The position numbers and the translations under genes were made by a program. From positions 1,676,968-1,740,967 of the forward strand of contig NZ_DF968182.1 in NCBI RefSeq assembly GCF_001192835.1: a stretch of 64,000 nucleotides of DNA, read 5' to 3'. This document shows, piece by piece, positions 33,361-58,137 of the stretch. A model generated the notes under the pieces. The model was not told the origin of the DNA. It was given only the letters and a program-made list of their open reading frames with translations, and made no database searches. How positions within the stretch are numbered: the first letter of the stretch is position 1; each line of letters begins with the position of its first letter. The stretch comes from Lentimicrobium saccharophilum. GTDB lineage: Bacteria; Bacteroidota; Bacteroidia; Bacteroidales; Lentimicrobiaceae.

Positions 33361-34116
33361 ATGCAAAGCAATCAAAATTCACAAAAGCGCACTCAACTGT
33401 ATTTGTTCCTCTCTGCCATTTTTCTTACCAACGCACTGGTTGCCGAATTTGCGGGAGTAAAGATTTTTTCGCTTGAAAAACTGCTCGGTCTGATGCCGGC
33501 ACAGCTTCCTTTTTTCGGCGGGCAGAAGCTCGATTTTAACCTGAGTGTGGGGGTGGTTATCTGGCCCATTGTTTTCCTGGTTTCGGACCTGGTCAATGAA
33601 TACTTCGGCCGCAACGGGGTGCGTAAGATCAGTTTTATAACCGCGGGGATGATTGCATGGTCATTTTTAATCGTTCTTGCCGGCACAGAAGTTCCTCCGG
33701 CGGATTTCTGGCTTAACCTGAACCAAACAGATCCAACCGGCAACCCTTTCGACATCAACTATGCCTATACCAGTATATTCAGAGCCGGGCTGGGAATCAT
33801 TATCGGTTCACTGGCAGCCTTTCTCGTCAGCCAGTTGATCGATGCCTATGCATTCCATTACCTGAAAGCCCTTACCGGCAGTAAAAAACTCTGGTTGCGG
33901 GCAACCGGCTCCACCGTGATTTCGCAGCTGATCGACAGTTTTGTAATCCTTTTCATTGCTTTTTACCTGCTCGGAAACTGGAGTATGCAGCAGGTATTGC
34001 AGGTAGGGCTGGTTCAATACACCTATAAGGTTTCACTGGCAATCCTGCTTACGCCCCTGATCTATCTGGCACACTGGCTGATCGACGGATATCTCGAAGC
34101 CCGGGGAGAAATGTAA
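33361..34116 (+). CDS. Queuosine precursor transporter (VUT/YhhQ family)
   Basis: 251 residues with about six membrane helices. The YhhQ/VUT pattern is clear: IWPIVFLVSDLVNEYFGRNG (about residues 64-83), RAGLGIIIGSLAAFLVSQLI and WLRATGSTVISQLIDSFVIL. The protein would import a queuosine precursor (preQ0, preQ1 or queuine) across the inner membrane for tRNA modification. No preQ1 riboswitch motif was found upstream. It stands alone, divergent from the sigma operon. Confidence 0.9.
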   Translation: MQSNQNSQKRTQLYLFLSAIFLTNALVAEFAGVKIFSLEKLLGLMPAQLPFFGGQKLDFNLSVGVVIWPIVFLVSDLVNEYFGRNGVRKISFITAGMIAWSFLIVLAGTEVPPADFWLNLNQTDPTGNPFDINYAYTSIFRAGLGIIIGSLAAFLVSQLIDAYAFHYLKALTGSKKLWLRATGSTVISQLIDSFVILFIAFYLLGNWSMQQVLQVGLVQYTYKVSLAILLTPLIYLAHWLIDGYLEARGEM

Positions 34117-36240: not shown

Positions 36241-38151
36241 ATGGCCCGGAAAAACCGGAAACAGGAAGAAATTATTCACGATTCGCATGAGCGGAGCAAG
36301 AAGTACGGGGTCACACGCGATCAGCAATACCCTTCACTGCTGCTCTCCGAGCAGGAAAAAGCGGTGTTGCTTGACGGAAACCGTGACCTGATCCGCGTTG
36401 CCGGACCTTTCCTCGACATGCTCTATAATTTTCTGGAAGGATCGGGATTTATCATTTTACTTACCGATAAAAACGGCTGCATTCTCAGCATTACCGGTGA
36501 TCCTGAGCCCGTTGGGGCAGCTTCCGGATTGAACATGGTGGTAGGCGCGTTTATGAATGAAAAGAGTATAGGCACCAATGCCATGGGTACCGCGCTGAGT
36601 GAAAATTCCCCTGTTCAGGTATCTGCCTCCGAGCACTTTATAACCGCGTATCACCGCTGGACCTGTTCCGCAGCCCCTGTACATGATGATGCCGGGAACA
36701 TCATCGGCACCGTTAACCTGACCGGAGGCCGCGAACTTGTTCATCCGCACACCCTCGGCCTGGTGGTTGCAGCCGTAACTGCCATCGAAAATCAGCTGAA
36801 AAACCTGAAAAATGAGTACCGCCTGAAGGAATCAGCCAGGTACATCAGCCAGGTGATGGATTCACTATCACTGGCTGTGATGTCGGTAAGTGAAGACGGG
36901 CTGATCACATCCGCCAACAAGATGGCTCACAAATTACTGAAATATCCGCATGGCATGCTTTCGGGAAAAGCGATTGATGGTTGCATTCCCGATTATAAAA
37001 AGCTGCTTCAGGCCATTCATGAGCCGGGTATTATGCTTGATGAGGACACCCAGATCATCACCTCCTCTGGTCCTGAGTCATTCAGCCTGAACGCCTACCC
37101 AATTACCCGGCCTGACGGCAAAATTGAAGGCATGGTCATCAGTTTCAGGGAAATGAAAAGGGTTTATAAGACCGTGAATAAATACACAGGCATGCATGCC
37201 CGCTATACTTTTGAAGACCTGATCGGCGAAAGTGATGAGCTCAGGCGGGTGACGGAATATGCAAAAACGGTAGCCGACAGCCCGTCAACCGTACTGATTA
37301 CAGGGGAAAGCGGCACCGGCAAAGAGGTAATTGCCCAATCCATGCATAACCACAGCGCCAGGGCATCGAATGGTTTTGTAGCCCTTAACTGCGGCGCCAT
37401 CCCCGCCACCCTGATCGAAAGTGAGTTGTTTGGTTACGATGAAGGGGCGTTCACCGGAGCCTTCAAGGGCGGAAGGCCGGGAAAATTCGAGCTGGCTAAC
37501 GGAGGCACACTGTTTCTGGACGAAATCGGCGAAATGCCGCCCGATATGCAGGTTAAACTGCTCAGAACATTGCAGGAGGGTGTAATCACCCGTGTTGGAG
37601 GCAGCAGACAAATTCCGGTTGATGTCCGGATTATCGCAGCAACAAATAAAAATCTCAAAGAAGAAATTGAAAAAGGAACATTCCGGAGCGACCTCTTTTA
37701 CCGGCTGAGTGTCATCCCGATCCATCTGCCCGCCCTGCGGGAGCGCAGAGAGGATATACCACTGCTGATCAGCTATTTCCTGAACCTGAAGTCTGTAAAA
37801 CTGAAAAAGAGCACACCGGAAATCAGCAAGGATTTGTTTATCAGGCTTACCGGTTACCACTGGCCCGGCAATATCAGGGAACTGGAGAATTTTATCGAGA
37901 AATATGTGAATCTGGGTGGAGACCTTTCCTTCGATCCTGAATCATTTTCTGCAGAAAAAAAGAGCGCATCAAAGGAATCATCCGGCAATGACAAGCCCGG
38001 AAGGACAATCCTCAACCTCGCTGAAGCTGAAAAACAAACCATTTTGTCAGCGCTCAGGGCAACAGAAAGTAACATCAGCCAGACTGCCAGATTACTGGGT
38101 ATAAGCCGGAACGCACTTTACGAAAAAATGAAGCGCCACGGCATCGGTTGA
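36241..38151 (+). CDS. Sigma-54-dependent activator, AcoR-like (GAF-PAS-AAA-Fis)
   Basis: 636 residues. N-terminal GAF-type sensor region (about 60-190, with NEKSIGTNAMGTALSENSPV), a PAS domain (about 200-310), the sigma-54 interaction AAA+ domain (about 320-555: Walker A GESGTGKEVIAQSM, GAFTGA loop GAFTGAFKGG, Walker B GGTLFLDEIGEMPPDM) and a C-terminal Fis helix-turn-helix (NISQTARLLGISRNALYEKM). The GAF-PAS order resembles AcoR-type activators that respond to small metabolites. The presence of sigma-54-type elements before the alcohol dehydrogenase at 58025 makes that gene a candidate target. It precedes the transhydrogenase operon by 282 bp. Confidence 0.92.
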   Translation: MARKNRKQEEIIHDSHERSKKYGVTRDQQYPSLLLSEQEKAVLLDGNRDLIRVAGPFLDMLYNFLEGSGFIILLTDKNGCILSITGDPEPVGAASGLNMVVGAFMNEKSIGTNAMGTALSENSPVQVSASEHFITAYHRWTCSAAPVHDDAGNIIGTVNLTGGRELVHPHTLGLVVAAVTAIENQLKNLKNEYRLKESARYISQVMDSLSLAVMSVSEDGLITSANKMAHKLLKYPHGMLSGKAIDGCIPDYKKLLQAIHEPGIMLDEDTQIITSSGPESFSLNAYPITRPDGKIEGMVISFREMKRVYKTVNKYTGMHARYTFEDLIGESDELRRVTEYAKTVADSPSTVLITGESGTGKEVIAQSMHNHSARASNGFVALNCGAIPATLIESELFGYDEGAFTGAFKGGRPGKFELANGGTLFLDEIGEMPPDMQVKLLRTLQEGVITRVGGSRQIPVDVRIIAATNKNLKEEIEKGTFRSDLFYRLSVIPIHLPALRERREDIPLLISYFLNLKSVKLKKSTPEISKDLFIRLTGYHWPGNIRELENFIEKYVNLGGDLSFDPESFSAEKKSASKESSGNDKPGRTILNLAEAEKQTILSALRATESNISQTARLLGISRNALYEKMKRHGIG

Positions 38152-38433: not shown

Positions 38434-38964
38434 ATGCGCGTTGCACGAATTCAAAAAGCAGAAAAGCCTCTCAATGGTGAAGTTCCTGACCTCAACCTGC
38501 TGAACCCGCTTATAGAGAAATACAAAGAGCGCAAAGGGAATATGATCCCCCTGCTTCAGGGAGCCCAGAACATTTATGGTTATATCCCCCGCCAGGCTTT
38601 TGAAAAAATTTCAGCGGATACAGGTTTAAGTCTCAGCGAAATGTATGGCGTGGCAACATTCTACGCACAGTTCAGGCTGAAACCCGTTGGAAAACACATT
38701 ATAAAAGTTTGTCACGGAACAGCCTGTCATGTTCAGAATGCCAATTCCATTACCGATGCCATTCAGGATTCTTTAAAAATAAAGGATACAGAAACCACTG
38801 AAGACGGGATGTTTACGCTCGAATCCGTAGCCTGTCTCGGATGTTGCTCCCTGGCCCCGGTGATGATGATAGGTGAAGACACCTACGGAAAACTCACCGG
38901 GAAAGACGCGGTGAAGATTATCAAGGAAATCAGGTTAAAGGAAAACCGGCAGGAAGAAAAATAA
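38434..38964 (+). CDS. NuoE-type [2Fe-2S] subunit, Stn/HydABC-type complex
   Basis: 176 residues with a helical N-terminus (about 15-85) and a thioredoxin-like [2Fe-2S] domain. The ligands are in CHGTAC and CLGCCSLAP. Such subunits (HydC, HndA, StnA) transfer electrons between the NuoF-type flavoprotein and the rest of a soluble complex. It is the first gene of a three-gene operon with 33-base gaps. The partner set (NuoF plus a fused NuoG/GltD subunit, without membrane subunits) argues for a soluble electron-bifurcating complex, not Complex I. Confidence 0.9.
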   Translation: MRVARIQKAEKPLNGEVPDLNLLNPLIEKYKERKGNMIPLLQGAQNIYGYIPRQAFEKISADTGLSLSEMYGVATFYAQFRLKPVGKHIIKVCHGTACHVQNANSITDAIQDSLKIKDTETTEDGMFTLESVACLGCCSLAPVMMIGEDTYGKLTGKDAVKIIKEIRLKENRQEEK

Positions 38965-38997
38965 ACCACTGATTCATATTGCTTTACATCAGGATAT

Positions 38998-40776
38998 ATG
39001 AGTAAAACACAGGTAATTGTAGGATTGGGCAGTTGCGGCATTGCAGCCGGGGCCGGCAAGACCTACAACAAAATCAAGGCATTGAAAGAAGCCGAAAATC
39101 TGGACTTTGAATTGAAGAAAACCAGTTGCGTAGGCATGTGCTACCGGGAACCACTGGTTGAAATCGTGGACAGCACAGGAACTTACCTTTACGGCGAAAT
39201 TGATGAGGACAGGGTATTTGAGATTATCGACAAACATATCGTCCAGGGAAGTCCGGTAAAAGAATATGTTGTACAGTCGGATCTTTTTAAAACGCCTGAA
39301 AATGAATTTCTTGACGAACAGGTAAAAATCGTGCTGCGTAACTGCGGACATATGGACCCTGAGAGTATTGAGGAATATCAGGCGCGTCAGGGATATGCCG
39401 CCATCCGCAAAATTGCCGGAGAGCAGATTTCCGGGGCGGATGTTATCCAGAAGGTACTTGATTCCGGAATCAGGGGCCGGGGCGGCGGTGGATTTCCCAC
39501 CGGTATGAAATGGCGGTTCGCCGCCGGCAATCCTTCTGATGAAAAATTCATCATCTGCAATGCCGACGAAGGCGATCCGGGGGCTTTTATGGACCGTTCA
39601 GTATTGGAGGGGGATCCGCATTCCGTGCTCGAAGGCATGATTATCGGCGCCTATGCCATCGGCGCCACCGAAGGAGTCATCTACTGCAGGGCTGAGTATC
39701 CCCTGGCCATCAAACGGCTTAACATTGCCCTTGACCAGGCCAGGGCAAATGGATTCCTGGGTCAAAACATCCTTGGAATCAAAGGATTTAACTTCGACAT
39801 ACATATCAAGGAGGGTGCCGGTGCTTTTGTCTGCGGTGAAGAAACGGCCCTGATTGCATCGGTGGAAGGTGAGCGCGGGATGCCCCGGAAACGCCCTCCA
39901 TTCCCGGCTGCTTCAGGATTGTGGCGCAAGCCTACCAACATCAACAATGTTGAGACTTACGCCAATATACCCTGGATTATTCTCAACGGCCCGGAAGCCT
40001 ATGCAAAATATGGCACCGAAAAAAGCAAGGGCACCAAGGTGTTTGCCCTCGCAGGAAAAATCAGGCGGTCAGGCCTCGTTGAAGTCCCTATGGGCATCAC
40101 CATCAGGGATGTAATCTTTAAATTGGGCGGAGGAATCAAGGATAACAAAAAATTCAAGGCCGTTCAAATGGGAGGCCCTTCCGGCGGGTGTATTCCCGAA
40201 TACCTGGCCGACACCATCGTGGATTACGATTCGGTAAATGCCACAGGCGCCATCATGGGATCAGGCGGTATGGTCGTGATGGATGAAACCACCTGCATGA
40301 TTGATGTGGCCAAATTCTTTCTTGACTTTACTCAAAAGGAAAGTTGCGGAAAATGCACCTTCTGCCGTATAGGGACGAAACGGATGCTTGAAATCCTGAA
40401 CCGCATCACCGATGGGGAAGGCAGGGATGGCGACATCGAACTGCTCGAAGAACTTGCCTACCAGATCAAGGATACGTCGCTTTGCGGACTGGGACAGACA
40501 GCGCCGAATCCCGTGCTCACCACGATCCGCTATTTCCGCGATGAATATGAAGCACATATTTATCACAAAAAATGCCCGGCCAAAGTCTGCAAGAAATTGC
40601 TGACTTATGAGGTAGATCCGGAAAAATGCACCGGGTGCACGGTTTGCGCCAAAAACTGCCCTACCCATGCCATCGATGGCGACAGAAAGCAGATTCATTT
40701 CATCCGTCAGGATGCCTGTATCCGCTGTGGCGAGTGCTATTCGAGATGTAAATTCGACGCCATCAAGATCTTCTGA
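38998..40776 (+). CDS. NuoF-type NADH-binding flavoprotein, Stn/HydB-like
   Basis: 592 residues: N-terminal thioredoxin-like Fe-S region (about 5-90, with only three obvious Cys: GSCG and CVGMC), the NuoF core with GIRGRGGGGFPTGMKW (about 157) for NADH/FMN and NADEGDPGAFMDRSVLEG, the N3-type [4Fe-4S] site SCGKCTFC (about 449) plus SLCGLG, and two C-terminal ferredoxin [4Fe-4S] motifs CTGCTVCAKNCP (about 543) and CIRCGECYSRC (about 574). The extra C-terminal ferredoxin domain is a hallmark of HydB/StnB-type bifurcating modules, which couple NADH to ferredoxin and a third partner. It is cytoplasmic. Confidence 0.93.
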   Translation: MSKTQVIVGLGSCGIAAGAGKTYNKIKALKEAENLDFELKKTSCVGMCYREPLVEIVDSTGTYLYGEIDEDRVFEIIDKHIVQGSPVKEYVVQSDLFKTPENEFLDEQVKIVLRNCGHMDPESIEEYQARQGYAAIRKIAGEQISGADVIQKVLDSGIRGRGGGGFPTGMKWRFAAGNPSDEKFIICNADEGDPGAFMDRSVLEGDPHSVLEGMIIGAYAIGATEGVIYCRAEYPLAIKRLNIALDQARANGFLGQNILGIKGFNFDIHIKEGAGAFVCGEETALIASVEGERGMPRKRPPFPAASGLWRKPTNINNVETYANIPWIILNGPEAYAKYGTEKSKGTKVFALAGKIRRSGLVEVPMGITIRDVIFKLGGGIKDNKKFKAVQMGGPSGGCIPEYLADTIVDYDSVNATGAIMGSGGMVVMDETTCMIDVAKFFLDFTQKESCGKCTFCRIGTKRMLEILNRITDGEGRDGDIELLEELAYQIKDTSLCGLGQTAPNPVLTTIRYFRDEYEAHIYHKKCPAKVCKKLLTYEVDPEKCTGCTVCAKNCPTHAIDGDRKQIHFIRQDACIRCGECYSRCKFDAIKIF

Positions 40777-40809
40777 ACCGGCTATTTTTAATAAAAGCAA
40801 GAGAATCCA

Positions 40810-43800
40810 ATGAAGAATAAAGTCAACATTATTATAAACGATCAGTTAGCAAAGGGTTACGAAGGTGAAACCATACTTACCGCAGCCCGCAGGCTGGGCA
40901 TTGAAATTCCGACCCTTTGCGACGATCCCCGTCTTGAACCTTTTACATCCTGCTATGTCTGTGTGGTAGAGGTTGAAGGTATGCGCGGCATGCAGCCGTC
41001 CTGCTCCACACGCATCGCCGAAGGAATGAAGATAAAAACCCACAGCGAGAAAGTGCTGAAAGCAAGGAAAACGGCACTTGAACTCATGCTCAGCAACCAT
41101 TATGCCGATTGTGTGGGACCTTGCAAGCAGACCTGTCCGGCAGGCGTAGATGTTCAGGGGTATATTTCACTGATAGAGAAGGGATTATATAATGATGCCG
41201 TGGCAGTTATCAAGGAAACAAATCCGCTGCCGGCCATCTGCGGACGTGTATGCGTGCGTCCCTGCGAAGTAGCCTGCCGCCGTAACCTGCTCGACGAGGG
41301 TGCACCCGTTGGCATCGACTACCTGAAACGGTTTGCTTCCGATATCGACCTCGATTCACCCGATAAATTCAAACCGCACATTCATCCCGAAACCGGAAAA
41401 CGTGTTGCCGTTATCGGCGCAGGACCGGGCGGACTTTCAGCAGCATTTTTCCTTAGAAAAGAAGGGCATGCAGTGGATATTTATGAAGCCAGCCCGGCCG
41501 CCGGCGGATGGCTGAGGTATGGTATCCCCGAATACCGGCTGCCCAACGACCTGTTGCAGCGCGAAGTGGATAACATTACCGAAATGGGGGTAAATATCCA
41601 CTATAATAAACGGCTTGGCGACAACATCAGTTACAAGGATCTGAGGTTAAAATATAACGCAACCATACTTGCCATCGGCTCTCAGAAAGGTACCGGGATT
41701 GGCTGCGAAGGTGACGATGCTGACGGCGTGTTTGCAGGTACTGATTTTCTGAAGGCTCTGGAGTTAAATAAATCCGACAAACCTGATTTCACCGGAAAAA
41801 CGGTAGTTGTTGTCGGGGGTGGCAATACCGCCATGGACTGCTGCCGTACTTCGCGCAGGCTCGGCGCTTCAAAGGTTTACGTAATATACCGCCGTACCGA
41901 AAAGGAGATGCCGGCCAATCCGATCGAGATCCATGAATCAAAACTGGAAGGCGTAGAATATATGTTTCTGACGCTTCCGCTGAAAGTTAAAAAAGATGAA
42001 AAGGGCCGAATTAAAGGGATGATCTGCATCCGCATGGAGCTGGGCGAACCTGATGCTTCAGGAAGGCGCAGACCTGTGCCGGTTCCCGACAGCGAATTTG
42101 AGATTGACGTGGATATCGCCCTGGCAGCAATTGGCCAGAAAACAGATATACATTTCCTGAATGATATCAATTCAAATGAAACCACAGGCCAGCTTGCCGC
42201 AAACAAGTGGGGAGATCTGGATGCCGATAAAAATACCCTGCAGACGGGCATCCCTTCAATGTTTGCCGCAGGCGACGGGGTTACCGGCCCGGCTACCCTG
42301 ATACAGGCCATTGCCCAGGCCCGGATCGCAGCGCTGAGTTGTCATCAGTACCTTACCGGTCAGCCGGTGAAGCCGCGCAAAAAAGAGTTTATCAGCAAAC
42401 GGGAAAATTTCAGAGAGCAAACTCAGGCTGATTTTGCCGGAAAGTTCGCTCGTCAGCTCAGGCATGAAATGCCGGTGCTGGATCCTGATCAGCGCAATAA
42501 CTTTAAGGAAGTTGAACTGGGTTATGAAAACGAAGCGGTTGCCAGGCAGGAAGCTGCCCGTTGCCTCGAGTGCGGATGCACCGCCTATTTTGACTGCGAT
42601 CTGAAAAAATACTCCACCGAATACGAAGCGGAGCAAAAGCACTTCGAAGGTGATCATCGCGAGTATGAAGTAGATTTCAGACATCCCTACATCGAAATTG
42701 ACAACAACAAGTGCATACTCTGCGCCCGATGCGTGAGAATCTGCCACGAGGTGGTCGGTGCCAACGCCCTGGGGCTGGTAAACCGGGGATTTGATACCTA
42801 TGTAGCTCCAAGTATGGGCAACTCGCTGAGCGACACCCAGTGTGAATCGTGCGGGCTCTGCCTTTCCACCTGCCCTACCGGCGCCCTTTCCGAAAACAAG
42901 CTGTTCAAGCCGGGACCGGTAAAGACTGAAAGTTTCAACACCATCTGTAACTACTGTTCCGTGGGATGCACCCTGGAGATTCATCACCGTAACGGTTTTG
43001 TGATGGAGGTTAAGGGGGCAGAAGGCTTAGTAAACCAGGACGGAAACATCTGCCGGTACGGAAAATTCGGTTATCAGTACCTGAATGACCGCAGCCGCCT
43101 TACCGTTCCGATGCTGAAAAAGAACGGAAAGCATGAGCCCATTGAATGGGACGAGGCATTTGATATTCTGGAAAAAAAGATCAGAACTTCCATACCATCA
43201 GAGTCTGCTTTTCTGGCCGGGGCGCGCCTTACCAATGAAGAACAGTACCTGGTTCAAAAGCTGGCACGTGCGGGTGCGAAAACCAATAATATCGGCAGTT
43301 TCCATTATCTTGGACGTGGCTCCGGGTATACAAAGCTTACCAAGGCCAACCTGCCTTTCCCCGAGCTTACCGAATCGAGCCGTGTCTACCTGCTGGGGGC
43401 AGAAGTGAGCAGGGACAATGCCGTTGCCGGTTTTATGATCTGGAATAACCGGAAGATAAATGGCATTCCGGTGGAGGTAATCACTGCGCCTGACAAAAGT
43501 ACTTCGGACCATAAAGCAGATAAAATTATCAGGATAAAATCCTATTACCATTTCGTGAAAGCGGCGAACCATTATCTGCTTACACATAAACTGGAGAATC
43601 AACTCTTTATAAGAGACCTGATCGATAATTTCGACGAATACAAGTCACATACACTGCGTGAATCTTTTTCAGATCTGGTAAAGGCATCGGGTGTTGACCG
43701 TGAAGAAACCATCATCCGGTTTGCGGTAGATTACAACAATGAAAAAGCGGCGGTCATTGTTTTTTCCGAAAAGGAATTGTCGGGACTCACCTGTTCCGAA

Positions 43801-44514
43801 ATCTTCAACCTTGCCTGCATCACCGGCAAACACGGGAAAACCGGCAGCGGGCTGATGTTGCTGAAAGAAAAAAACAACAGCCATGGCCTGCACGACATGG
43901 GCGTAATGTCAAACCTGGGCCCGGGGGCCTGCGACTGGGAAGACCCCATCCTCAGACAATCGTTCGAGCACAGCTGGAACTGCGGAGAACTGCCGTCAGG
44001 AAACGGTTGCACCCTGCACGACATGCAAAGCGGCACATACAGGAACCTTTTTATTTTCGGTGAAGACCCTGTGGGATGCGCCGTAAACCAGGACGAAGTC
44101 AGGAATTGGTTTTCCAAAGCCGGATTCGTAATGGTGCAGGATTATTTCATGACCGAGACGGCAAAAATGGCTGACCTTGTATTACCTGCTTCACTACCCT
44201 GGGAGACCGGAGGCACCTTTACCAACAGTCAGAAAGTGATTCAGAAAATCGACAAGGCATTGGAACCTGCGATTCAATACGAAGGATGGAAACAAACCGA
44301 TAAGCTGCTTTCGCGGCTGGGCCTCGGTACATTCGAAACGGTCGACGACATCATTTTCGAAGTTGCCTCTTTGCTGCCAAAGTATTGTACCAGCAGTAAA
44401 CTCCGGTTCAGGATAACGGAAGAGGACAACTACAACCCTCTTTTCAGACATGGTTGTGATGCAGTGAACAGAAGATTCGACCTGGAATTTGAGAAGGCAT
44501 TTTCAGAATCATGA
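40810..44514 (+). CDS. Fused NuoG-like/GltD-like large subunit (StnC-type transhydrogenase subunit)
   Basis: 1234 residues. Order: N-terminal [2Fe-2S] ferredoxin (about 37-65), a GltD-type Fer4 region (CVGPCKQTCPAG, about 100-170), FAD fold (VAVIGAGPGGLSAAFFLRKE, about 198), NADPH fold with VVVVGGGNTAMDCC and the 2'-phosphate region VYVIYRR (about 330-358), two [4Fe-4S] motifs (CILCARCVRIC, about 635; CESCGLCLSTC, about 677), then a molybdopterin-oxidoreductase-like domain starting CNYCSVGC (about 713). At the formate-dehydrogenase Sec/Cys position (about 831) it has only SFHYLGRGSG, and the C-terminal cofactor-binding domain is missing, so it is NuoG-like and not a formate dehydrogenase. It is predicted to carry electrons between the NuoF core and NADP. 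Confidence 0.9.
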   Translation: MKNKVNIIINDQLAKGYEGETILTAARRLGIEIPTLCDDPRLEPFTSCYVCVVEVEGMRGMQPSCSTRIAEGMKIKTHSEKVLKARKTALELMLSNHYADCVGPCKQTCPAGVDVQGYISLIEKGLYNDAVAVIKETNPLPAICGRVCVRPCEVACRRNLLDEGAPVGIDYLKRFASDIDLDSPDKFKPHIHPETGKRVAVIGAGPGGLSAAFFLRKEGHAVDIYEASPAAGGWLRYGIPEYRLPNDLLQREVDNITEMGVNIHYNKRLGDNISYKDLRLKYNATILAIGSQKGTGIGCEGDDADGVFAGTDFLKALELNKSDKPDFTGKTVVVVGGGNTAMDCCRTSRRLGASKVYVIYRRTEKEMPANPIEIHESKLEGVEYMFLTLPLKVKKDEKGRIKGMICIRMELGEPDASGRRRPVPVPDSEFEIDVDIALAAIGQKTDIHFLNDINSNETTGQLAANKWGDLDADKNTLQTGIPSMFAAGDGVTGPATLIQAIAQARIAALSCHQYLTGQPVKPRKKEFISKRENFREQTQADFAGKFARQLRHEMPVLDPDQRNNFKEVELGYENEAVARQEAARCLECGCTAYFDCDLKKYSTEYEAEQKHFEGDHREYEVDFRHPYIEIDNNKCILCARCVRICHEVVGANALGLVNRGFDTYVAPSMGNSLSDTQCESCGLCLSTCPTGALSENKLFKPGPVKTESFNTICNYCSVGCTLEIHHRNGFVMEVKGAEGLVNQDGNICRYGKFGYQYLNDRSRLTVPMLKKNGKHEPIEWDEAFDILEKKIRTSIPSESAFLAGARLTNEEQYLVQKLARAGAKTNNIGSFHYLGRGSGYTKLTKANLPFPELTESSRVYLLGAEVSRDNAVAGFMIWNNRKINGIPVEVITAPDKSTSDHKADKIIRIKSYYHFVKAANHYLLTHKLENQLFIRDLIDNFDEYKSHTLRESFSDLVKASGVDREETIIRFAVDYNNEKAAVIVFSEKELSGLTCSEIFNLACITGKHGKTGSGLMLLKEKNNSHGLHDMGVMSNLGPGACDWEDPILRQSFEHSWNCGELPSGNGCTLHDMQSGTYRNLFIFGEDPVGCAVNQDEVRNWFSKAGFVMVQDYFMTETAKMADLVLPASLPWETGGTFTNSQKVIQKIDKALEPAIQYEGWKQTDKLLSRLGLGTFETVDDIIFEVASLLPKYCTSSKLRFRITEEDNYNPLFRHGCDAVNRRFDLEFEKAFSES

Positions 44515-44559: not shown

Positions 44560-45168
44560 TTAAGGTATTATGAATTTTCCGGATAATCCGGCGCCGTTCT
44601 CATAACGGAGCACGAAAAGGTATATTCCTTTGATAACCGGCTTACGGGTAAGCATGATACGTCTTTGATCAAATATATAGTTATCAATGCTTTTGCCGGA
44701 AATATCCAGGATTGACACTTCGCCTTTGCGCGCCGGCGGGTTTTTAACGGATAATTCTGCACCCTGATCTGAATAAAGGATGGTATAACCCCGATCACCT
44801 GAAGGTATGAATTCAACCTCCAGAGCGGTAGTAAAACCCGTATTACCAAGTTCAAGGCGATAGTAGTTCAGGGTGTTCGGAACAGGCAGGCTGTCGGTAA
44901 AAGTGAAGGTGACAGAAGTTTCAGGGTTACCGCAGATACCGGGAATCTCTCCGATCTCATCATAAAACAGCCCATCCGCAGATCTTTCGATACGGGTTCC
45001 TTCGCACAGGCTACCACTCCGGAAAGTCCAGCGAAGGAAGACCTTATTGCCCTGCTGGTAACCCGAGAAATCCTGAAGTAACGGATGTACCTGTGCCCTG
45101 CCCGCGGAAGGAAGGACCTGCAAAGTAATTATCACCAGAAAAATCAGGTATTTAAACGGAACTGTCAT
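44560..45168 (-). CDS. Secreted T9SS-like protein of unknown function
   Basis: 202 residues with a signal peptide (FLVIITLQVLPSAGRAQ), a beta-sandwich-like middle (FRSGSLCEGTRIERSADGLF, as in fibronectin-like domains of secreted Bacteroidetes proteins) and a C-terminal T9SS-type region (about 125-202, with VSILDISGKSIDNYIFD and GIYLFVLRYENGAGLSGKFI). It is convergent with the transhydrogenase operon, 45 bp away. No function can be assigned. Confidence 0.75.
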   Translation of the reverse strand: MTVPFKYLIFLVIITLQVLPSAGRAQVHPLLQDFSGYQQGNKVFLRWTFRSGSLCEGTRIERSADGLFYDEIGEIPGICGNPETSVTFTFTDSLPVPNTLNYYRLELGNTGFTTALEVEFIPSGDRGYTILYSDQGAELSVKNPPARKGEVSILDISGKSIDNYIFDQRRIMLTRKPVIKGIYLFVLRYENGAGLSGKFIIP

Positions 45169-45268: not shown

Positions 45269-46291
45269 TTAAAATTTCAGTTGCCTGATGATATCTATGG
45301 TTTGGTCAAGCATATTTTCAGTAAAATCAAGGTGCGTGACCAGCCTTACCGATTGCCTGTCGAAATCGATGGCCAGAACGCCCTCTTCTGCCAGTTTGCC
45401 TGTAACCATTGAAGCGGTGAGCGGCTCTTTAACTTTGAAAATCACAATATTAGTATCCACAGGCAGCACCTCACTCACCCATTGAAGTTGCTGAAGGGCT
45501 TCTCCCAGCTGGCGGGCCCGCCGGTGATCCTCTTTCAGCCGCTCAACGTGATGATCAATTGCATATATTCCGGCAGCGGCAAGATATCCCGCCTGTCGCA
45601 TGCCACCCCCGAACACCTTTCTTACCCTCCTGGCCCTGCGGATAAATTCATGATCACCCAGCAAAACCGAACCTACAGGAGCACCCAGACCCTTGGAAAG
45701 GCAAATGGAGATGCTGTCAAACAAAGCGCCGCATTCCCGCGTTGATTGCCCGGTAACAGCCAGGGCATTAAAAACCCGGGCACCATCAAGGTGATATTTG
45801 AGTCCGTTGTTACGGCAAACCTCCCCTATCGCGGCAAGTTCCTGATTGCTGTAAACAGCGCCTCCTCCCTTATTCATGGTATTTTCAACCTCTGTCATTG
45901 CGGTACGCGGACGGTGCAGGTCGTCGGGATTGATGTGATCGGCCACATCCTTTGCTGTGATCCTCCCACGGTCACCCTCCAGCAGACATACCGAAAGCCC
46001 CGAGTTCGACATCAACCCGCCAGCTTCATAGTAATACACGTGCGAAAGCTTGTGCAGAATCACCTCTTCGCCCGGCCGGGCATGCACCCTGGCTGCAATC
46101 TGGTTGGTCATGGTGCCCGAGGGGCAAAAAAGCCCGGCTTCCTTCCCGAAAAGAGCGGCCGTTTTTGCTTCAAGGGCAGCTACCGTAGGATCTTCCCCGA
46201 AAACATCATCCCCGACCGGGGCTGAAAACATGGCTTCAAGCATACCCGGTGTGGGACGGGTAACGGTATCGCTCCGCAAATCAATTTTCAT
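45269..46291 (-). CDS. ltaE: Low-specificity L-threonine aldolase
   Basis: 340 residues of a fold-type I PLP enzyme that cleaves L-threonine (and allo-threonine) to glycine and acetaldehyde. Motifs: IDLRSDTVTRPTPGM at the N-terminus, GDDVFGEDPTV, the substrate-binding NTMNKGGGAVYS and the PLP lysine in SICLSKGLGAPVGSVLLG (about residue 199), with LDGARVFN upstream carrying the PLP-nitrogen Asp. A -7 box, TAccTTTG, lies at 46311-46318. It sits alone between two terminators or convergent ends. Confidence 0.93.
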   Translation of the reverse strand: MKIDLRSDTVTRPTPGMLEAMFSAPVGDDVFGEDPTVAALEAKTAALFGKEAGLFCPSGTMTNQIAARVHARPGEEVILHKLSHVYYYEAGGLMSNSGLSVCLLEGDRGRITAKDVADHINPDDLHRPRTAMTEVENTMNKGGGAVYSNQELAAIGEVCRNNGLKYHLDGARVFNALAVTGQSTRECGALFDSISICLSKGLGAPVGSVLLGDHEFIRRARRVRKVFGGGMRQAGYLAAAGIYAIDHHVERLKEDHRRARQLGEALQQLQWVSEVLPVDTNIVIFKVKEPLTASMVTGKLAEEGVLAIDFDRQSVRLVTHLDFTENMLDQTIDIIRQLKF

Positions 46292-50187: not shown

Positions 50188-51636
50188 CTATTTACTTTCA
50201 GCCATTGCATCCACCTGCACACCGGCCCGCGCATTGAAGAGCTTACGGGCTACTTCTGGTGAACTGATGCCTGCAGGCCCTGAGAGGCAACCGCCTTCGC
50301 AGGCCATCACCTCAATCATATTGTAATCATGCTTTCCGGCTACCAACTTCCGTAGTCCGGCAATATTCCTTTTATTCAGGCCATTGACAACCAGGGGCTT
50401 CAATGGCACACCGTGATAATGAGCCGCTACGGAACGCATCACGCCCGAGCTGGCAGTAAATATCCTTTCAGGGATTACCCCTCCCTGTTCTTCCTGCTCA
50501 AAATCCTGAAAATCCACATTCATGGCAATCATCAGCGAACCCAGTTCTTCGAAGGTCATTACAAAATCTACCCCTTCATATTTTCGGGCTTCAGCCTGCT
50601 TGGCCACGCAGGGTCCTATAAAAACCACAGTGGCATGGGGGTACTTCTCTCTTACCAGCGTTGCCGTATAGCGCATCGGCGACCATGTCGCCGAAACCGA
50701 AGGTTTTAGTTGCGGAAGGTGCTTCTCCGTCATTTCCACCCAGGCGGGGCAGCAGGAAGTGGTCATGAAGGGCCTCCCCGACTCCAGGGTTTCGGCAAGC
50801 TCTTCCGCTTCGTGCCGCGCAGTTATCGCCGCGCCTGCAGCAACTTCAAACACATCGGTGAAGCCAAGCTTCAGCACGGCCTGCTCCACAGCCTGGTAGT
50901 TGACCCTGAACTGTCCGCAAACAGCAGGCGCGAGCATGGCAACCACCGGTTTATCGGCCCTGGCAATGCGATGCAGCACATGAATCAGCTGCGACCGGTA
51001 CATAATGGCACCAAAAGGACAGGCAACCATGCATTTACCACAATGAATACACTTTTCATAATCAATTTCTTCAATTCCTTTTTCATTGCGGTAGATAGCC
51101 TTTACGGGACAGGATTCTTCACAGGGTATGGGTACATAGATTATGGCATGATACGGACAGGCATCCTGGCAAAGACCGCAACCCACACATTTCGAAGGGT
51201 CGATTTTTGCCTGCCCGTTCTCCATTGAAATGGCCTGTTTGGGGCAGGTAACCATGCAATGAGAGGCCAGGCAGCCACGGCAAAGATTTGAAACAGTATA
51301 ATTGCTTTTTACACACGAAGTGCAGGCTTCATCCACTACCGTCAGCACCCCGCTTCCATGGTCGGTGCCTGCCAGTGATCGCAGGGCATAACTGTAGAGG
51401 GATTCCAGCTCATCGGTTTCATCGGCGACATTGAAACCCAGCAACGCCATAATCCTGTAGCGGATAATGGCCCTTGCCTTGTGAATGCAGCATCGGGAGT
51501 TGTGGGCGGCGGTATTGCGCGGCGCCATATCGAGGGGTATCCGGTCAATTTCGTCAAGCCTCCCCTGGGTGTAAAGCCTGCAAAGCCGGGTGATGATCTC
51601 CCTGCGGATCAGGGTGGCATTATTGGTTTGCGCCAT
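50188..51636 (-). CDS. [FeFe] hydrogenase, group B
   Basis: 482 residues. The N-terminal domain has Cys-rich [4Fe-4S] motifs (CTSCVKS, LCRGCLASHCMVTCP, then CVGCGLCQDACPYHA and CIHCGKCMVACPFGA), followed by the H-cluster domain: L1 TTSCCPAWVE (about residue 290), L2 GPCVAKQAEA (about 340) and L3 EVMACEGGCLSGP (about 442). L1 keeps both the proton-shuttle and the ligand Cys, so this is a catalytic enzyme. The L2 GPC and the extended N-terminus fit the group B (ferredoxin-linked) hydrogenases. The ATG at 51636 is preferred over 51663; it overlaps the upstream 2Fe-2S gene by 17 bases. Confidence 0.93.
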   Translation of the reverse strand: MAQTNNATLIRREIITRLCRLYTQGRLDEIDRIPLDMAPRNTAAHNSRCCIHKARAIIRYRIMALLGFNVADETDELESLYSYALRSLAGTDHGSGVLTVVDEACTSCVKSNYTVSNLCRGCLASHCMVTCPKQAISMENGQAKIDPSKCVGCGLCQDACPYHAIIYVPIPCEESCPVKAIYRNEKGIEEIDYEKCIHCGKCMVACPFGAIMYRSQLIHVLHRIARADKPVVAMLAPAVCGQFRVNYQAVEQAVLKLGFTDVFEVAAGAAITARHEAEELAETLESGRPFMTTSCCPAWVEMTEKHLPQLKPSVSATWSPMRYTATLVREKYPHATVVFIGPCVAKQAEARKYEGVDFVMTFEELGSLMIAMNVDFQDFEQEEQGGVIPERIFTASSGVMRSVAAHYHGVPLKPLVVNGLNKRNIAGLRKLVAGKHDYNMIEVMACEGGCLSGPAGISSPEVARKLFNARAGVQVDAMAESK

Positions 51637-51889
51637 GCGACAGTTCCTCCCTGACTTTAGCAATTACTTTCTGAATATTTGCCTCCTCAATCAGCGCCTG
51701 ATTGACCATAACAAACGGAGGTTTGCCAAACCCTGCCTTTTGACAGTATCCCGGACAGTTCATCCCCTGCACCCTGACCTTGTTTCTGAACTCTACGGGA
51801 AGATGCTCTCCCAGCATTTCGAAAGCCGATCCCCCCATGATAAAACAAAGGGTTCCAAAGCAAATTTTTATTTCAACCATCCCGTCCAT
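51620..51889 (-). CDS. Small [2Fe-2S] thioredoxin-like protein
   Basis: 89 residues with the thioredoxin-like ferredoxin pattern CFGTLC (about residue 10-15) and CPGYC (about 45-49), as in NuoE-type C-terminal domains but standing alone. It probably shuttles electrons to or from the group-B hydrogenase, with which it overlaps by 17 bases, or to its phosphatase partner 7 bases upstream. Cytoplasmic. Confidence 0.82.
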   Translation of the reverse strand: MDGMVEIKICFGTLCFIMGGSAFEMLGEHLPVEFRNKVRVQGMNCPGYCQKAGFGKPPFVMVNQALIEEANIQKVIAKVREELSHGANQ

Positions 51890-51896
51890 ATTTGTT

Positions 51897-53084
51897 TCAG
51901 ATAAAGTCCAGATGTACCTCTTTCAGATACCTATCTTCAAGCAACCGCTTTATTTTTTTCACCACATTCCTTCTGATTTCCAGCTCAACAGGCAGGCTGG
52001 GATCCTGGTGAGCTTCGTTGATGCGGGTGCCGGCCAGCAGGTAAATCTGATCGTTGTTAAGCAGCAGCCTCAGCAGCGCAGAAGCGGCATCCCTGCCTTT
52101 CACCGGCAGGGAAACACCCTCCTCCAACCGGGCTGAAACGCGGCCAAGGGTAAGCACGCCCTCCGTCACCAGATCTACGCCTTTCATGCGTGATACGGGA
52201 GGAATACCGTCAGACATGGTTTCAAGACTTACTTCTATCCCACGACCGGTTTCACGGGCGACAATCTCTGCCGTAGTACCTCCGCATAGCACCTTTTGTC
52301 CTGAAAACGACTCCACAATCTTGGCAAGCCTGTGGTCGTCGGCATTGTGATAGGGAGGCCCCGAGCAAAGCAGCAGTCGGCGCGGTCTCCTGAAATAGAT
52401 GACCACGCAGGAAGTATCATCATTGGCAGAGTAAATGTCGTTGGCATGTGCCCGCTCCACCATTCTTCCCGAAAGATCAGCTGCCGAAATTCCCGGCTCC
52501 TGCTGCAGTAAATGGCATACCCAATCCCCTGTTGCTGCCATATCCCAGCCGAAAGGATACATACTGGTTCCTATCCCCGATTGGCTGATGCCATCGCTCA
52601 TCAGAATTATCCGGTCTTCGCGCCTGGCCAGAAAAGTGCTGCACGCAAGTTCGCGCTTCCGGGCTACCCTGCGGTTTATCACGAGCTTCGTTTGATTGGT
52701 TTTCAAAACTTTGCAATCTCTGATTACCAGCGGAGCCGGGTTATCGAAATTGACAATGCGGGTTTCACCATCTGCATCGCTGTCAACAATGGTAAACGTC
52801 GCATAACTGATTTTTCTTTCCCTGTCGACCGGAAGGGTATCCAGTATGGTTCGGGCGGTGCGCTCATGCGGATATCTTTCCATGGTAAAATTGAGCCCCA
52901 TGGTGGCTGTAAGCGTTGCCAGTACATTTGCCCGCACGCCGCTGCCCAGCCCATCACTCAGTACGGTAATGATGCGGTTCTCTTCCTGAATCTTACGCGA
53001 CAGAAACACATCCCCGCAAATGGTTTCACCCTTTTTACAGAGTTGCCTCGAAGCAATTTCTATGTAAAATTCGCTGCCGTTCAT
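51897..53084 (-). CDS. SpoIIE-family (PP2C-type) protein phosphatase
   Basis: 395 residues. The first half carries the SpoIIE/PP2C phosphatase pattern: VLSDGLGSGVRANVLATLTA (metal-binding Asp-Gly) and RIILMSDGISQSGIGTS (about 155-172), with NDDTSCVVIYFRR near residue 225. The C-terminal part (about 230-395) is a separate domain of unknown role. In related clusters such a phosphatase accompanies a sensory hydrogenase, so it may relay the H2/redox signal by dephosphorylating a target. It starts 3 bases after the sensory hydrogenase. The substrate is not known. Confidence 0.85.
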   Translation of the reverse strand: MNGSEFYIEIASRQLCKKGETICGDVFLSRKIQEENRIITVLSDGLGSGVRANVLATLTATMGLNFTMERYPHERTARTILDTLPVDRERKISYATFTIVDSDADGETRIVNFDNPAPLVIRDCKVLKTNQTKLVINRRVARKRELACSTFLARREDRIILMSDGISQSGIGTSMYPFGWDMAATGDWVCHLLQQEPGISAADLSGRMVERAHANDIYSANDDTSCVVIYFRRPRRLLLCSGPPYHNADDHRLAKIVESFSGQKVLCGGTTAEIVARETGRGIEVSLETMSDGIPPVSRMKGVDLVTEGVLTLGRVSARLEEGVSLPVKGRDAASALLRLLLNNDQIYLLAGTRINEAHQDPSLPVELEIRRNVVKKIKRLLEDRYLKEVHLDFI

Positions 53085-53087
53085 CGT

Positions 53088-54812
53088 TCAGACCTTTTCC
53101 TGTTCAGTAACAAGGGCATTCAACATGGCTTCGGTGCGGGCTGCATTTTCGCCAAGCAGAAAAGCTACTTTCTGCACAGTGCCCATATTTTCGCGCACCA
53201 CCTGCCTTATACGACGGACTACCTGCTCCTGCATCACTTCGGGCTGGTGCAGGTCCTGTATAATACCGCAAACAATCCGGTGCCGCTGAATGGTGAAAAC
53301 GGAAAGGTTCATCAGCCTCCCTTTCTCATCTATATTTTTATCAATCAAATCATTGCCTGATGAAAGCACATTCAGGAATATCTTGTGACTGCTGATCATT
53401 TTCCTGAGGTCGGCACCCTTCAGCCCCGGCCTGACTTCCCAGAGGGCTGGCAGGTCGTTACCGGCCAGCTCAGCGAAAACTTTGTTGCTTTCGATCACGT
53501 GCAGACTGTCGTCAACCAGCACCACCCCGTAAGGCATGCGTTGCAGCAGCACACTGGCCTTATCGGCCGCTACCTTCCGCATATAGGAAACACACATCTG
53601 CCGCTCTGCCATACCACTGAGCATGGCGATGGCAAAATCACGGCAACTATTGTATCCGCAACCTCCGCAATTAAGTTCGTCGGCTTTGGAGGTTTTACCA
53701 ACTGTGCGCAACGCTTCCTGAATGTCTGATTCACTGCAATCGCGGTTTCGCACCGGCTGACTTACGGTACAGAAAGCCGAGCGGATGCCCGGAAAATCAG
53801 CAGATATAACGGCTCCGGAACTTCCGGTTTTATGCATTTTTCGGTAATGTTCTATCTGCAGATTCTTGACAATGGTTCCTTTCTGCGAGGAGAATCCGGG
53901 TCCATTGACGCAACCACCGTCACATACCAGCAGTTCAAGAAAAAGTTTGATATTACACTGAAGTGCAGAAACCCCGTCAAGAGCTGCTTTAATATTCTCC
54001 ATTCCGGAGATATGCATATAACTGACATCCGGCAAACTGACCACATTCCTGAGGGTCGTTGTCATCCCTCCGTCAAGCGGATATAATGCACCGTCGGCTG
54101 CACTGAAGGGTACAAACTCTGCCGGCACATTCATCCTGACGAGGCCCGGCAGGATCCCCTCCTCTTCAAACCATGCCCTCAGATCTTTAAATGTCAGCGC
54201 GGCATCGATCAGGGAGTTGAAATCGTCGGATTCATTCTTTTTTGCCACACAGGGTCCGATAAAAACTACCCGGATATCATCTCCAAACCATTGACGGAGC
54301 ATCGCTGCATGAGCCATAAGCGGAGAATGCAGCCCCACAATGCATGAGGTAAGTTCCGGCCTGTACTTGCGAATGTAATCCACAGCCGAGGGACAAGCGG
54401 AACTGATAAATATTCCGGATGCTGACTGTTGCAGCAAACAGGATGTTTCAGCGGTGACCCGCTCGGCACCCAGGGCAGTTTCCGAAACGCCTGTAAAACC
54501 AAGCATCCCCAACCCGGCTATTAATTCATTTACAGGGTAGGCGGCAAACTCAGCCACAAAAGAAGGCGCCAGGGAAACATATACCGGTTTATCGCGCCTG
54601 AGCATACGTTTGACCCGCGACACATCATCGCGCACCTTTTTGGCGCCGGAAGGACAAATCAGGGTGCAACGGCCGCAAAAAATACAGAGATCGCGCACAA
54701 TTGAAGCCCTGTCGGACTCTATTCTGATTGCCTTTACGGGACATTCCCTGATGCACTTGTAGCAATCCTGACAATTGTTGGTTTCGGTATACACCGGCTG
54801 CATCCTGTCCAT
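53088..54812 (-). CDS. Sensory [FeFe] hydrogenase (HydS/group C) with PAS domain
   Basis: 574 residues. Two N-terminal [4Fe-4S] motifs (CQDCYKCIRECP and CIFCGRCTLICP) precede the H-cluster domain: L1 SSACPSAVDY (about residue 136), L2 GPCVAKKNE (about 185) and L3 LLVCDGGCVNGP (about 292). L1 has Ala where catalytic enzymes have the proton-shuttle Cys, as in Thermotoga HydS. An extra Fe-S motif CGGCGYNSC (about 380) and a C-terminal PAS-like domain (about 415-510) follow. Together these mark a low-turnover H2 sensor. The frame is open to 54947, but the longer start would overlap the next gene; the ATG at 54812 lies 14 bases after its stop. Confidence 0.9.
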   Translation of the reverse strand: MDRMQPVYTETNNCQDCYKCIRECPVKAIRIESDRASIVRDLCIFCGRCTLICPSGAKKVRDDVSRVKRMLRRDKPVYVSLAPSFVAEFAAYPVNELIAGLGMLGFTGVSETALGAERVTAETSCLLQQSASGIFISSACPSAVDYIRKYRPELTSCIVGLHSPLMAHAAMLRQWFGDDIRVVFIGPCVAKKNESDDFNSLIDAALTFKDLRAWFEEEGILPGLVRMNVPAEFVPFSAADGALYPLDGGMTTTLRNVVSLPDVSYMHISGMENIKAALDGVSALQCNIKLFLELLVCDGGCVNGPGFSSQKGTIVKNLQIEHYRKMHKTGSSGAVISADFPGIRSAFCTVSQPVRNRDCSESDIQEALRTVGKTSKADELNCGGCGYNSCRDFAIAMLSGMAERQMCVSYMRKVAADKASVLLQRMPYGVVLVDDSLHVIESNKVFAELAGNDLPALWEVRPGLKGADLRKMISSHKIFLNVLSSGNDLIDKNIDEKGRLMNLSVFTIQRHRIVCGIIQDLHQPEVMQEQVVRRIRQVVRENMGTVQKVAFLLGENAARTEAMLNALVTEQEKV

Positions 54813-54826
54813 TTCAGTATCATTTT

Positions 54827-55084
54827 TCAGGCATGAACCCCGCTGATGGCGCTTTTCAGAATATTGATCACATTGGCCGGATGTACATCCTGATAGACAT
54901 GGTCGTTGATAATCAGGACGGGACCTTTGCTGCACAAACCGGAACATAGCTGTCCCTTGAAGTTGACTTCAGCTTCGAGTTTCCGCTCATTCAGCCACGC
55001 TTTGATCAGTTCAAGACTCACCCTGTTTCCTCTTGAATAGCAGGAGCTTCCCATGCAGATGGTGATTTGTATTTTCGGATTCAT
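54827..55084 (-). CDS. Small (2Fe-2S) ferredoxin-domain protein
   Basis: 85 residues. C-x4-C (CMGSSC, about 11-16) and CSGLC (about 47-51) form the thioredoxin-like [2Fe-2S] site, followed by GPVLIINDHVYQDVHP. Similar to but distinct from the 51620 protein. It sits directly before the sensory hydrogenase and may donate electrons to it. Cytoplasmic. Confidence 0.85.
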   Translation of the reverse strand: MNPKIQITICMGSSCYSRGNRVSLELIKAWLNERKLEAEVNFKGQLCSGLCSKGPVLIINDHVYQDVHPANVINILKSAISGVHA

Positions 55085-55108
55085 ATCAGGATGATTTAGG
55101 GTAATGAC

Positions 55109-55867: not shown

Positions 55868-55879
55868 AACCTCTGATCT

Positions 55880-56767: not shown

Positions 56768-56786
56768 AATATTTTGATTTTCAGAC

Positions 56787-56820
56787 AAAAAGCCGGCAGG
56801 AGGCAGGGCCTCCTGCCGGC
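56787..56820 (-). terminator. Terminator/attenuator between ADH and the nfnA-like operon
   Basis: 12-bp perfect stem GCCGGCAGGAGG (56792-56803) with 56809-56820, 5-base loop, followed on the minus strand by TTTTT (56791-56787). It lies 20 bases before the nfnA-like ATG, leaving little room for a new promoter between them. Confidence 0.75.
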
Positions 56821-56858
56821 AGTAAACACACAAATGAGAAATTAAAGCTGTATTTTTA

Positions 56859-58025: not shown

Positions 58026-58066
58026 GACTTTTTTTATCTTAATTAAACTTAGGTCATTCCACCTAT

Positions 58067-58082
58067 ACCAATGGTCGTGCCA
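58067..58082 (-). promoter_or_regulatory. Candidate sigma-54 promoter for ADH
   Basis: TGGCACG-N4-TTGGT on the minus strand (58082 to 58067), against the consensus TGGCACGNNNNTTGCW. Only the -12 GC is changed to GG. It lies about 40 bases before the ADH ATG. Confidence 0.45.
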
Positions 58083-58137
58083 CAAATTATATCACACTAT
58101 ATTTCAACATCTTACAACTGTTAATTGTTTCACACAA

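Follow-up and report, generated by a model that had tools for sequence, protein, structure and literature searches.

The genome of Lentimicrobium saccharophilum (4,514,407 bases in 2 contigs) contains a three-gene operon, stnABC, predicted to encode an Stn-type transhydrogenase, an enzyme known from acetogens. The operon lies in the stretch of 64,000 bases analysed here, C1:1676968-1740967, which is called the window and in which all positions below are counted. The organism, Bacteroidales strain TBC1, came from a methanogenic wastewater system, and its draft genome was reported as 15 contigs in 2 scaffolds (PMC4599096). All three genes lie on the plus strand and both intergenic gaps, stnA/stnB and stnB/stnC, measure 33 bases, as stated in the initial annotation, which had been made from the DNA letters. 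The genes and their main features are as follows.

38434-38964, plus strand: stnA, 176 amino acids (aa), NuoE/HydC/BfuC-like, with one [2Fe-2S] cluster; Pfam PF01257 (2Fe-2S_thioredx), 175 bits
38998-40776, plus strand: stnB, 592 aa, NuoF/HydB/BfuB-like, with a flavin mononucleotide (FMN) and NAD(H) site, clusters B1-B4 and a C-terminal ferredoxin domain, from PDB matches and ligand residues
40555-40557, plus strand: StnB His520, non-cysteine ligand of the B2 [2Fe-2S] cluster, by alignment to 7t2r_B
40810-44514, plus strand: stnC, 1234 aa, comprising Fer2, an inserted GltD part (flavin adenine dinucleotide (FAD), NADPH), a NuoG-like ferredoxin domain and an inactive FdhF-like end
41113-42369, plus strand: GltD/NfnB-like insertion of StnC, about aa 102-520, from Fer4_20, Pyr_redox_2 and PDB alignments
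41326-41328, plus strand: StnC Lys173, equivalent by alignment to Sporomusa ovata K170, which ligates cluster C7 next to the FAD; NfnB has Glu here
41536-41538, plus strand: StnC Arg243, equivalent by alignment to S. ovata R239 and NfnB R201
42922-44511, plus strand: FdhF-like C-terminal domain of StnC, aa 705-1234, the part of StnC that persists as a gene of its own in 8 congeneric genomes

The Pfam domains agree with the initial description of a NuoE protein, a NuoF with a C-terminal ferredoxin domain and a fused GltD-NuoG-like protein: StnB consists of Complex1_51K, NADH_4Fe-4S and a C-terminal Fer4 pair, and StnC of Fer2_4, Fer4_20, Pyr_redox_2, Fer4_Nqo3, Molybdop_Fe4S4 and Molybdopterin. 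Compared over its whole 1234 aa with the chains of the PDB, StnC matches 9bov_A (793 bits), 8oh5_C (767) and 9n5u_A (626) best, followed by NfnB-type chains (up to 332), formate dehydrogenases (FDHs; up to 286) and NuoG (up to 153). For StnB, the chains 9n5u_B (872 bits), 9bov_B (860) and 8oh5_B (855) precede a NiFe-hydrogenase chain (773), FeFe-hydrogenases (up to 723), and FDH and Complex I chains (at most 425). According to the PDB titles, 9bov is the Nfn-ABC of Caldicellulosiruptor saccharolyticus and 8oh5 the StnABC of S. ovata. These first ranks, together with the retained Lys, Arg and His markers, bear out the subunit plan of S. ovata that had been proposed. The initial annotation had named closeness to active FDHs or to NuoG as the contrary outcome; over the whole StnC the Stn chains are far ahead, whereas the C-terminal domain alone does lie nearer to active FDHs. 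Complex I NuoEFG was rejected as an identity because StnC has the GltD insertion, StnB has the C-terminal ferredoxin domain and NuoG scores so low. Nor does StnC fall in with NfnAB, since Lys replaces the Glu of NfnB and the neighbours of stnC are the genes of StnA and StnB.

Diagnostic residues of StnC were compared in 93 Bacteroidota proteins (the window, 9 congeneric, 9 from other families and 74 named loci). With numbering counted along the chain, S. ovata K170, R239 and C114 align with K173, R243 and V115, and K173, R243 and H97 are invariant in all 93. The NADPH-type arginine pair noted initially was found as Y360-R361-R362, invariant in the 8 Bacteroidota StnC aligned for this stretch, window included. 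Seventeen of the 26 putative cluster cysteines are kept in 93/93, five (645, 678, 681, 684, 688) in 92/93, and those at 713, 716, 720 and 748 in 87-88 of the 93. The single protein without the five is a split gene, L124:3825-7550, in which a break near residue 645, before the FdhF-like domain, divides StnC into adjacent frames of 648 and 593 aa. The ligands of StnC would suffice for one [2Fe-2S] cluster (4 Cys) and six [4Fe-4S] clusters (22 Cys with K173 and H97, 24 in all). In StnA, the translation contains C93, C98, C134 and C138, which we take to be the four [2Fe-2S] ligands. The B2 ligands of StnB, read from an alignment of residues 435-594 of A. mobile HydB (7t2r_B) with residues 1-160 of StnB aa 430-592, are present as C433, T471, H520, C526 and C531, and the B1, B3 and B4 cysteines are also kept. 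In PMC10482914, the Lys at the FAD-proximal cluster (K170 in S. ovata) is described as strictly conserved, and PMC9304861 reports that Thr commonly replaces one B2 Cys in BfuB and that only 8 of 1558 BfuB lack the B2 His, which non-bifurcating HydB homologues do not have.

The operon is not a chance arrangement, because StnC (78-98% identity) and StnB (85-99%) are well conserved in 10 other congeneric genomes; among these, the contig of G003 ends inside stnC and the copy of G004 is broken by runs of N. It very probably encodes a soluble electron-bifurcating transhydrogenase of the Stn type (also Nfn-Bfu or NfnABC), and its place in the Stn/Nfn-Bfu group is established as firmly as sequence data permit. 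Genes, gene order, domain plan, ligands and kinship are direct observations, as is the lack of a PntB match in the host genome; the electron path and reaction would be those of the S. ovata enzyme, whose path and cluster roles are given in PMC10482914. By that analogy, NADPH would transfer a hydride to the FAD in the GltD part of StnC, and single electrons would then pass through the Lys-ligated cluster and the other StnC clusters to the FMN of StnB. There, with StnA, one electron pair would reduce NAD+ and the other would reach ferredoxin through further StnB clusters. The FdhF-like end, lacking the catalytic residue and a cofactor-binding domain, would lie off this path. In the cell the reaction probably runs in reverse, so that ferredoxin reduced by pyruvate:ferredoxin oxidoreductase (PFOR), together with NADH, would yield NADPH for biosynthesis. 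The host genome contains PFOR and RnfC, and its GltD-type matches at E <= 1e-50 with StnC as query are StnC itself and one 1091-aa frame (37%), with no others. The suggested role in energy conservation would hold only indirectly, since the enzyme balances redox pools.

Outside Lentimicrobium, a scan of genome contigs found at least 542 stretches encoding some relative of StnC (E <= 1e-3). The best 80 were kept, each matching at least 1189 residues, and comprise 74 named loci outside the genus and 6 congeneric ones (L055-L060); their titles name 76 Bacteroidota, 3 uncultured bacteria and 1 Alphaproteobacteria (L111). Full-length StnC was found in 10 of 395 genomes sampled evenly from the phylum, host included, which makes the operon a recurring but not a general feature of Bacteroidota. 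Wherever StnA was found in the named loci outside the genus (65 of 74), the order stnA-stnB-stnC is colinear. Two kinds of more distant relative were also seen. Loci L027-L034, from the Bacteroidota families f18 and f47, encode a second full-length StnC type, 37-40% identical, next to which L028 has a gene for a PAS/HisKA-like protein; L035-L054 encode proteins of about 660 aa with a Fer2-GltD plan, 38-42% identical to StnC aa 3-650. The latter, from family f19, were rejected as Stn because their loci, with flanks of at most 1.5 kb, gave no StnA or StnB match.

Downstream of stnABC, a gene that Pfam calls Rubrerythrin is present in 45 of the 67 loci outside the genus (of 74 named) that extend at least 600 bases past stnC, always on the same strand; it lies within 3.6 kb in 44 of them (within 350 bases in 39) and farther on in L078. 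The genes nfnAB stand upstream of stnA in 4 of the 46 loci with at least 1.9 kb there, and downstream in L078, and the NfnB of these stn-linked pairs has an N-terminal addition resembling zinc ribbons. In the order of G198, NfnB occurs on the stnC contig within about 5 kb in 7 genomes, and three loci fetched from this order read ZnR-nfnA-nfnB-stnA-stnB-stnC-rbr. For acetogens, PMC7483475 describes Stn and Nfn as almost mutually exclusive. As a separate observation, long proteins related to a PPDK_N plus receiver protein, often cut by the locus end, flank the stn cluster on both sides in nine loci (L084, L087, L094, L095, L101, L111, L112, L119, L127) and on one side in 14 more.

These neighbourhoods raise the possibility, compatible with an Stn-type enzyme, that outside Lentimicrobium the Bacteroidales complex mainly feeds a peroxide-reducing rubrerythrin or acts as a unit with NfnAB, transhydrogenation being secondary. 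The frequency of the downstream gene and the existence of the ZnR-nfnA-nfnB-stnABC-rbr clusters speak for it; the link to rubrerythrin is one of adjacency, absent from 22 of the 67 loci, with no rubrerythrin-like gene beside stn in any of the 6 named congeneric loci, and the complementarity with PntB described below fits a supply of NADPH. We regard this reading as unlikely, with perhaps a minor share of the probability. A good deal less probable is a non-bifurcating NADPH oxidoreductase of the Nso or Sfr kind, passing the electrons of NADPH only to NAD+ or another acceptor. In its favour, NADPH oxidation has been seen with recombinant S. ovata StnC on its own, and the Nso of Thermococcus has the same plan (both PMC7483475). 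Against it, StnB possesses both the C-terminal ferredoxin domain and the ligands of B2, His520 among them, whereas B2-B5 are reported to be missing in non-bifurcating homologues (PMC9304861). The least credible identity, to which we attach almost no probability, is the one suggested by automatic annotation of StnC, namely a formate dehydrogenase or a Bfu enzyme that uses formate. It draws on the C-terminal domain, whose top match when used alone is FdhF (7qv7, 201 bits) and whose derived orphan form, treated below, has an FDH-like modelled fold. However, the catalytic Cys of 7qv7, in the motif ARLCHA, aligns with a Gly of the StnC stretch SFHYLGRG, and the Pfam scan gave no Molydop_binding match in StnC, which upholds the initial claim that neither a catalytic Cys/Sec nor a C-terminal cofactor domain is present. 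StnC also scores 289.7 bits against the TIGR01591 cut-off of 666, and four of the 93 StnC have lost all four cluster cysteines of this domain.

Several observations may count against the Stn-type assignment or qualify it. The position of S. ovata C114, whose loss halves activity (PMC10482914), holds Val in 82, Ala in 7 and Ile in 4 of the 93 StnC; the same paper notes that C114 is not strictly conserved and is Val or Ile in two homologues, so this Cys does not define the group. The N-terminal thioredoxin-like part of StnB retains three cysteines (C13, C44, C48), set against the S. ovata part, compared by description only, in which two of four are changed to Gly (PMC7483475). A reservation for the C-terminal domain only is that, with aa 705-1234 as query, S. 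ovata StnC (145 bits) and 9bov_A (121) fall behind active FDHs, which reach 201 bits. Because of this preference, the FdhF-like end of Lentimicrobium StnC may be less worn or may have been exchanged. This end, whose S. ovata counterpart is described as a non-functional remnant in PMC10482914, diverges faster than the remainder, with a median identity to the window of 50% vs 71% for aa 3-690 in 73 of the 74 named loci (L124 left out).

The FdhF-like end is also found on its own. Of 19 congeneric genomes, 11 have full StnC, and in the other 8 (G002, G005, G010, G011, G014, G016, G017, G018) only about aa 693-1230 are matched, at 47-57% identity, by open frames of 528-657 aa, that of G017 running to the contig end. 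The same 11 genomes also have StnB orthologues (85-99%), whereas the 8 orphan genomes have only paralogues of 52-61%, a kind also present in the 11, and no StnA or StnB was found in the 9-19 kb (without N) around the orphans, StnA having been searched at the locus only. The orphans occupy the old locus; in G011, by a match made by eye, the neighbours are a counterpart of window gene 33361-34116 on one side and counterparts of 44560-45168 and 45269-46291 on the other. The four cluster cysteines are retained in all 8 orphans, as is FHY from the SFHYLGRG stretch. In a quick tree of the C-terminal domain (50 rows: 22 of the 74 named loci, 5 of 9 StnC of other families, 10 of 11 genus StnC, G004 being left out for its runs of N, all 8 orphans and 5 FDH-like outgroup proteins), the orphans form one branch (support 96) nested within the genus StnC clade (100), with G008 (94). 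Their origin as an ancestral gene before the fusion was rejected on account of this nesting. The single branch, despite three state changes on an rpoB tree, could reflect long-branch attraction or transfer.

Among six orphan pairs, the ratio of nonsynonymous to synonymous substitution rates (dN/dS) is 0.12 for G011/G017, the sole pair unsaturated at silent sites, and the proportions of nonsynonymous and synonymous differences (pN and pS) in the other five are 0.21-0.32 vs 0.75-0.81; on these grounds the orphans look to be under purifying selection, yet they diverge faster than the same domain within StnC. An AlphaFold2 model of an orphan (mean predicted local distance difference test score 79, predicted template modelling score 0.79) resembles FDHs and nitrate reductases best in Foldseek, with S. 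ovata StnC at rank 19, NuoG at 20 and 9bov_A at 21. It is conceivable, though we would put it at below even chances, that once StnB and the leading two thirds of StnC were lost (stnA is absent from the locus too), the FdhF-like end stayed behind in its place as an intact gene under selection, with its [4Fe-4S] motif and no catalytic site, while PntAB seems to take over transhydrogenation; the orphan may then act as a scaffold, structural or redox, for some other partner.

PntB is present in 9 of the 19 congeneric genomes, in 7 of the 8 without stnABC vs 2 of the 11 with it (Fisher p 0.0055), and in the 13 with completeness of 90% or more and contamination of 5% or less the counts are 3/3 vs 2/10 (p 0.035). 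In the order of G198 (44 genomes, 11 with StnC), PntB above the cut-off occurs in 0 of 11 vs 19 of the 33 others (p 0.0009), and in family f42 alone in 0 of 11 with StnC vs 7 of 18 without (p 0.026); genus and order pooled give p 4e-5. Fisher tests ignore kinship, and shared ancestry limits these statistics. For the counts, G444 was treated as without PntB (below the cut-off, E 1.9e-4) and G433 as without Stn (StnC not found, the contig ending inside an nfnAB-stnA-stnB cluster; no PntB either), and absences are weak in incomplete genomes such as G005 (78%), G016 (79%) and G017 (72%). The pattern, seen in two sets of genomes, suggests that in such bacteria a proton-driven transhydrogenase replaces a soluble enzyme driven by ferredoxin. 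On the other side stand the small number of events, three state changes each for Stn and Pnt on the rpoB tree (17 of 19 genomes, with no match in G007 and G016), an independent-pairs test that has no power with 2-3 pairs, and the genomes that depart from the pattern: G004 and G008 carry both systems and G017 shows neither. A decaying stn operon in G004 was rejected because its breaks are assembly runs of N, and the genome was therefore counted as having both. Further, 9 of the 11 StnC genomes in the order of G198, in family f42, have NfnB above the cut-off, so Stn need not be the source of NADPH there.

One further gene adjoins the operon in the window:

36241-38151, plus strand: sigma-54 activator-like regulator (GAF, PAS, AAA+ and Fis helix-turn-helix domains), upstream of stnA, from Pfam

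Of the five named congeneric loci with DNA upstream of stnA, two (L055 and L058) have a gene of this type beside the operon and L056, L059 and L060 do not. Sigma-54 control by this regulator was rejected because the stretch from it to stnA contains no -24/-12 site when up to 2 mismatches are allowed; the whole window has 33 such sites vs a mean of 37.5 in shuffles, no excess. Farther away, 50188-58085 on the minus strand holds a redox-sensing cluster with a [FeFe] hydrogenase B1 (506 bits, above the cut-off), a 2Fe-2S thioredoxin-like protein, a SpoIIE-type phosphatase, a hydrogenase-like 4Fe-4S protein with an FeS domain, a Rex repressor and an iron alcohol dehydrogenase. Beside Rex, at 55880-56833 (minus strand), 11 kb from the stn operon and without NfnB, is an NfnA/SudB-like FAD/NAD protein that scores 158 bits with PRK06222, below its cut-off of 220; it has no Pfam match, so none to the DHODB [2Fe-2S] domain, the site cysteines of which are replaced (by eye). 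Elsewhere in the host genome, besides StnB and RnfC, three more NuoF/HydB-type genes (C1:1127246, C1:1135160, C2:913582) are each followed by a frame matching StnC aa 5-102 at 46-50%.

Regarding what was known, Table 1 of PMC7483475 includes Firmicutes, Proteobacteria, Synergistetes and Euryarchaeota, and one sentence of PMC9304861 lists Bacteroidetes members. Since the latter already mentions the phylum, the operon is a new member of a known enzyme group and not new for Bacteroidetes, and calling it little known there, as had been done, was an overstatement, also in view of the 80 near-full-length homologues in named contigs. In the open-access PMC literature (supplements and most subscription journals lie outside it), no title or abstract was found on Stn in Lentimicrobium, a stnABC-rubrerythrin cluster or an nfnAB-stnABC cluster; none of these searches targeted the orphan domain. 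The enzyme is ordinary for its kind, and what is new is the orphan domain with its PntB pattern, the rubrerythrin clusters outside the genus and the clusters with nfnAB in one family. The operon adds a cultivated environmental Bacteroidete to the predicted hosts of a well-understood bifurcating transhydrogenase; the orphan genes offer a testable lead on the purpose of the inert StnC end, and the nfnAB-stnABC-rubrerythrin clusters one on why Stn and Nfn co-occur in some Bacteroidales.

Among characterised enzymes, S. ovata StnABC (8oh5, 8oh9; PMC7483475, PMC10482914) has the same subunit plan and sizes, the GltD insertion in a NuoG-like protein, the Lys ligand, the Arg at FAD, an inactive FdhF-like end and a HydB-like StnB with a ferredoxin domain. 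The Lentimicrobium enzyme differs in the Val at C114 and in an FdhF-like end that scores nearer to active FDHs, and some sister species keep this end as a free gene. The Nfn-ABC of C. saccharolyticus (9bov, 9bp5) is the best StnC match and of similar length class (1178 aa), with K and R kept; it has Cys at the C114 position, where Lentimicrobium has Val, and the other differences are those given for S. ovata. The best StnB match (872 bits) is 9n5u, an NfnABC that we presume to be the Thermococcus Nfn-Bfu of PMC9304861, the organism being our assumption; it shares K, R and the Val at the C114 position with Lentimicrobium, and its large subunit is shorter (963 aa). Enzymes of this type are described as having a partial C-terminal domain without the C2 cysteines (PMC10482914). 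NfnAB (4ylf, 5jca) resembles the complex in the GltD/NfnB fold, the R201 equivalent and the same three substrates. Unlike StnC, however, NfnB has Glu at the Lys position and, according to PMC10482914, uses its own FAD for bifurcation and has NfnA as its partner. The predicted rubrerythrin-Bfu pairing Rub-Bfu, clade 57 of PMC9304861, likewise has a rubrerythrin gene directly beside a Bfu operon; it is without the BfuA/StnC subunit, whereas the Bacteroidales clusters include a complete StnC and, in some cases, nfnAB as well.

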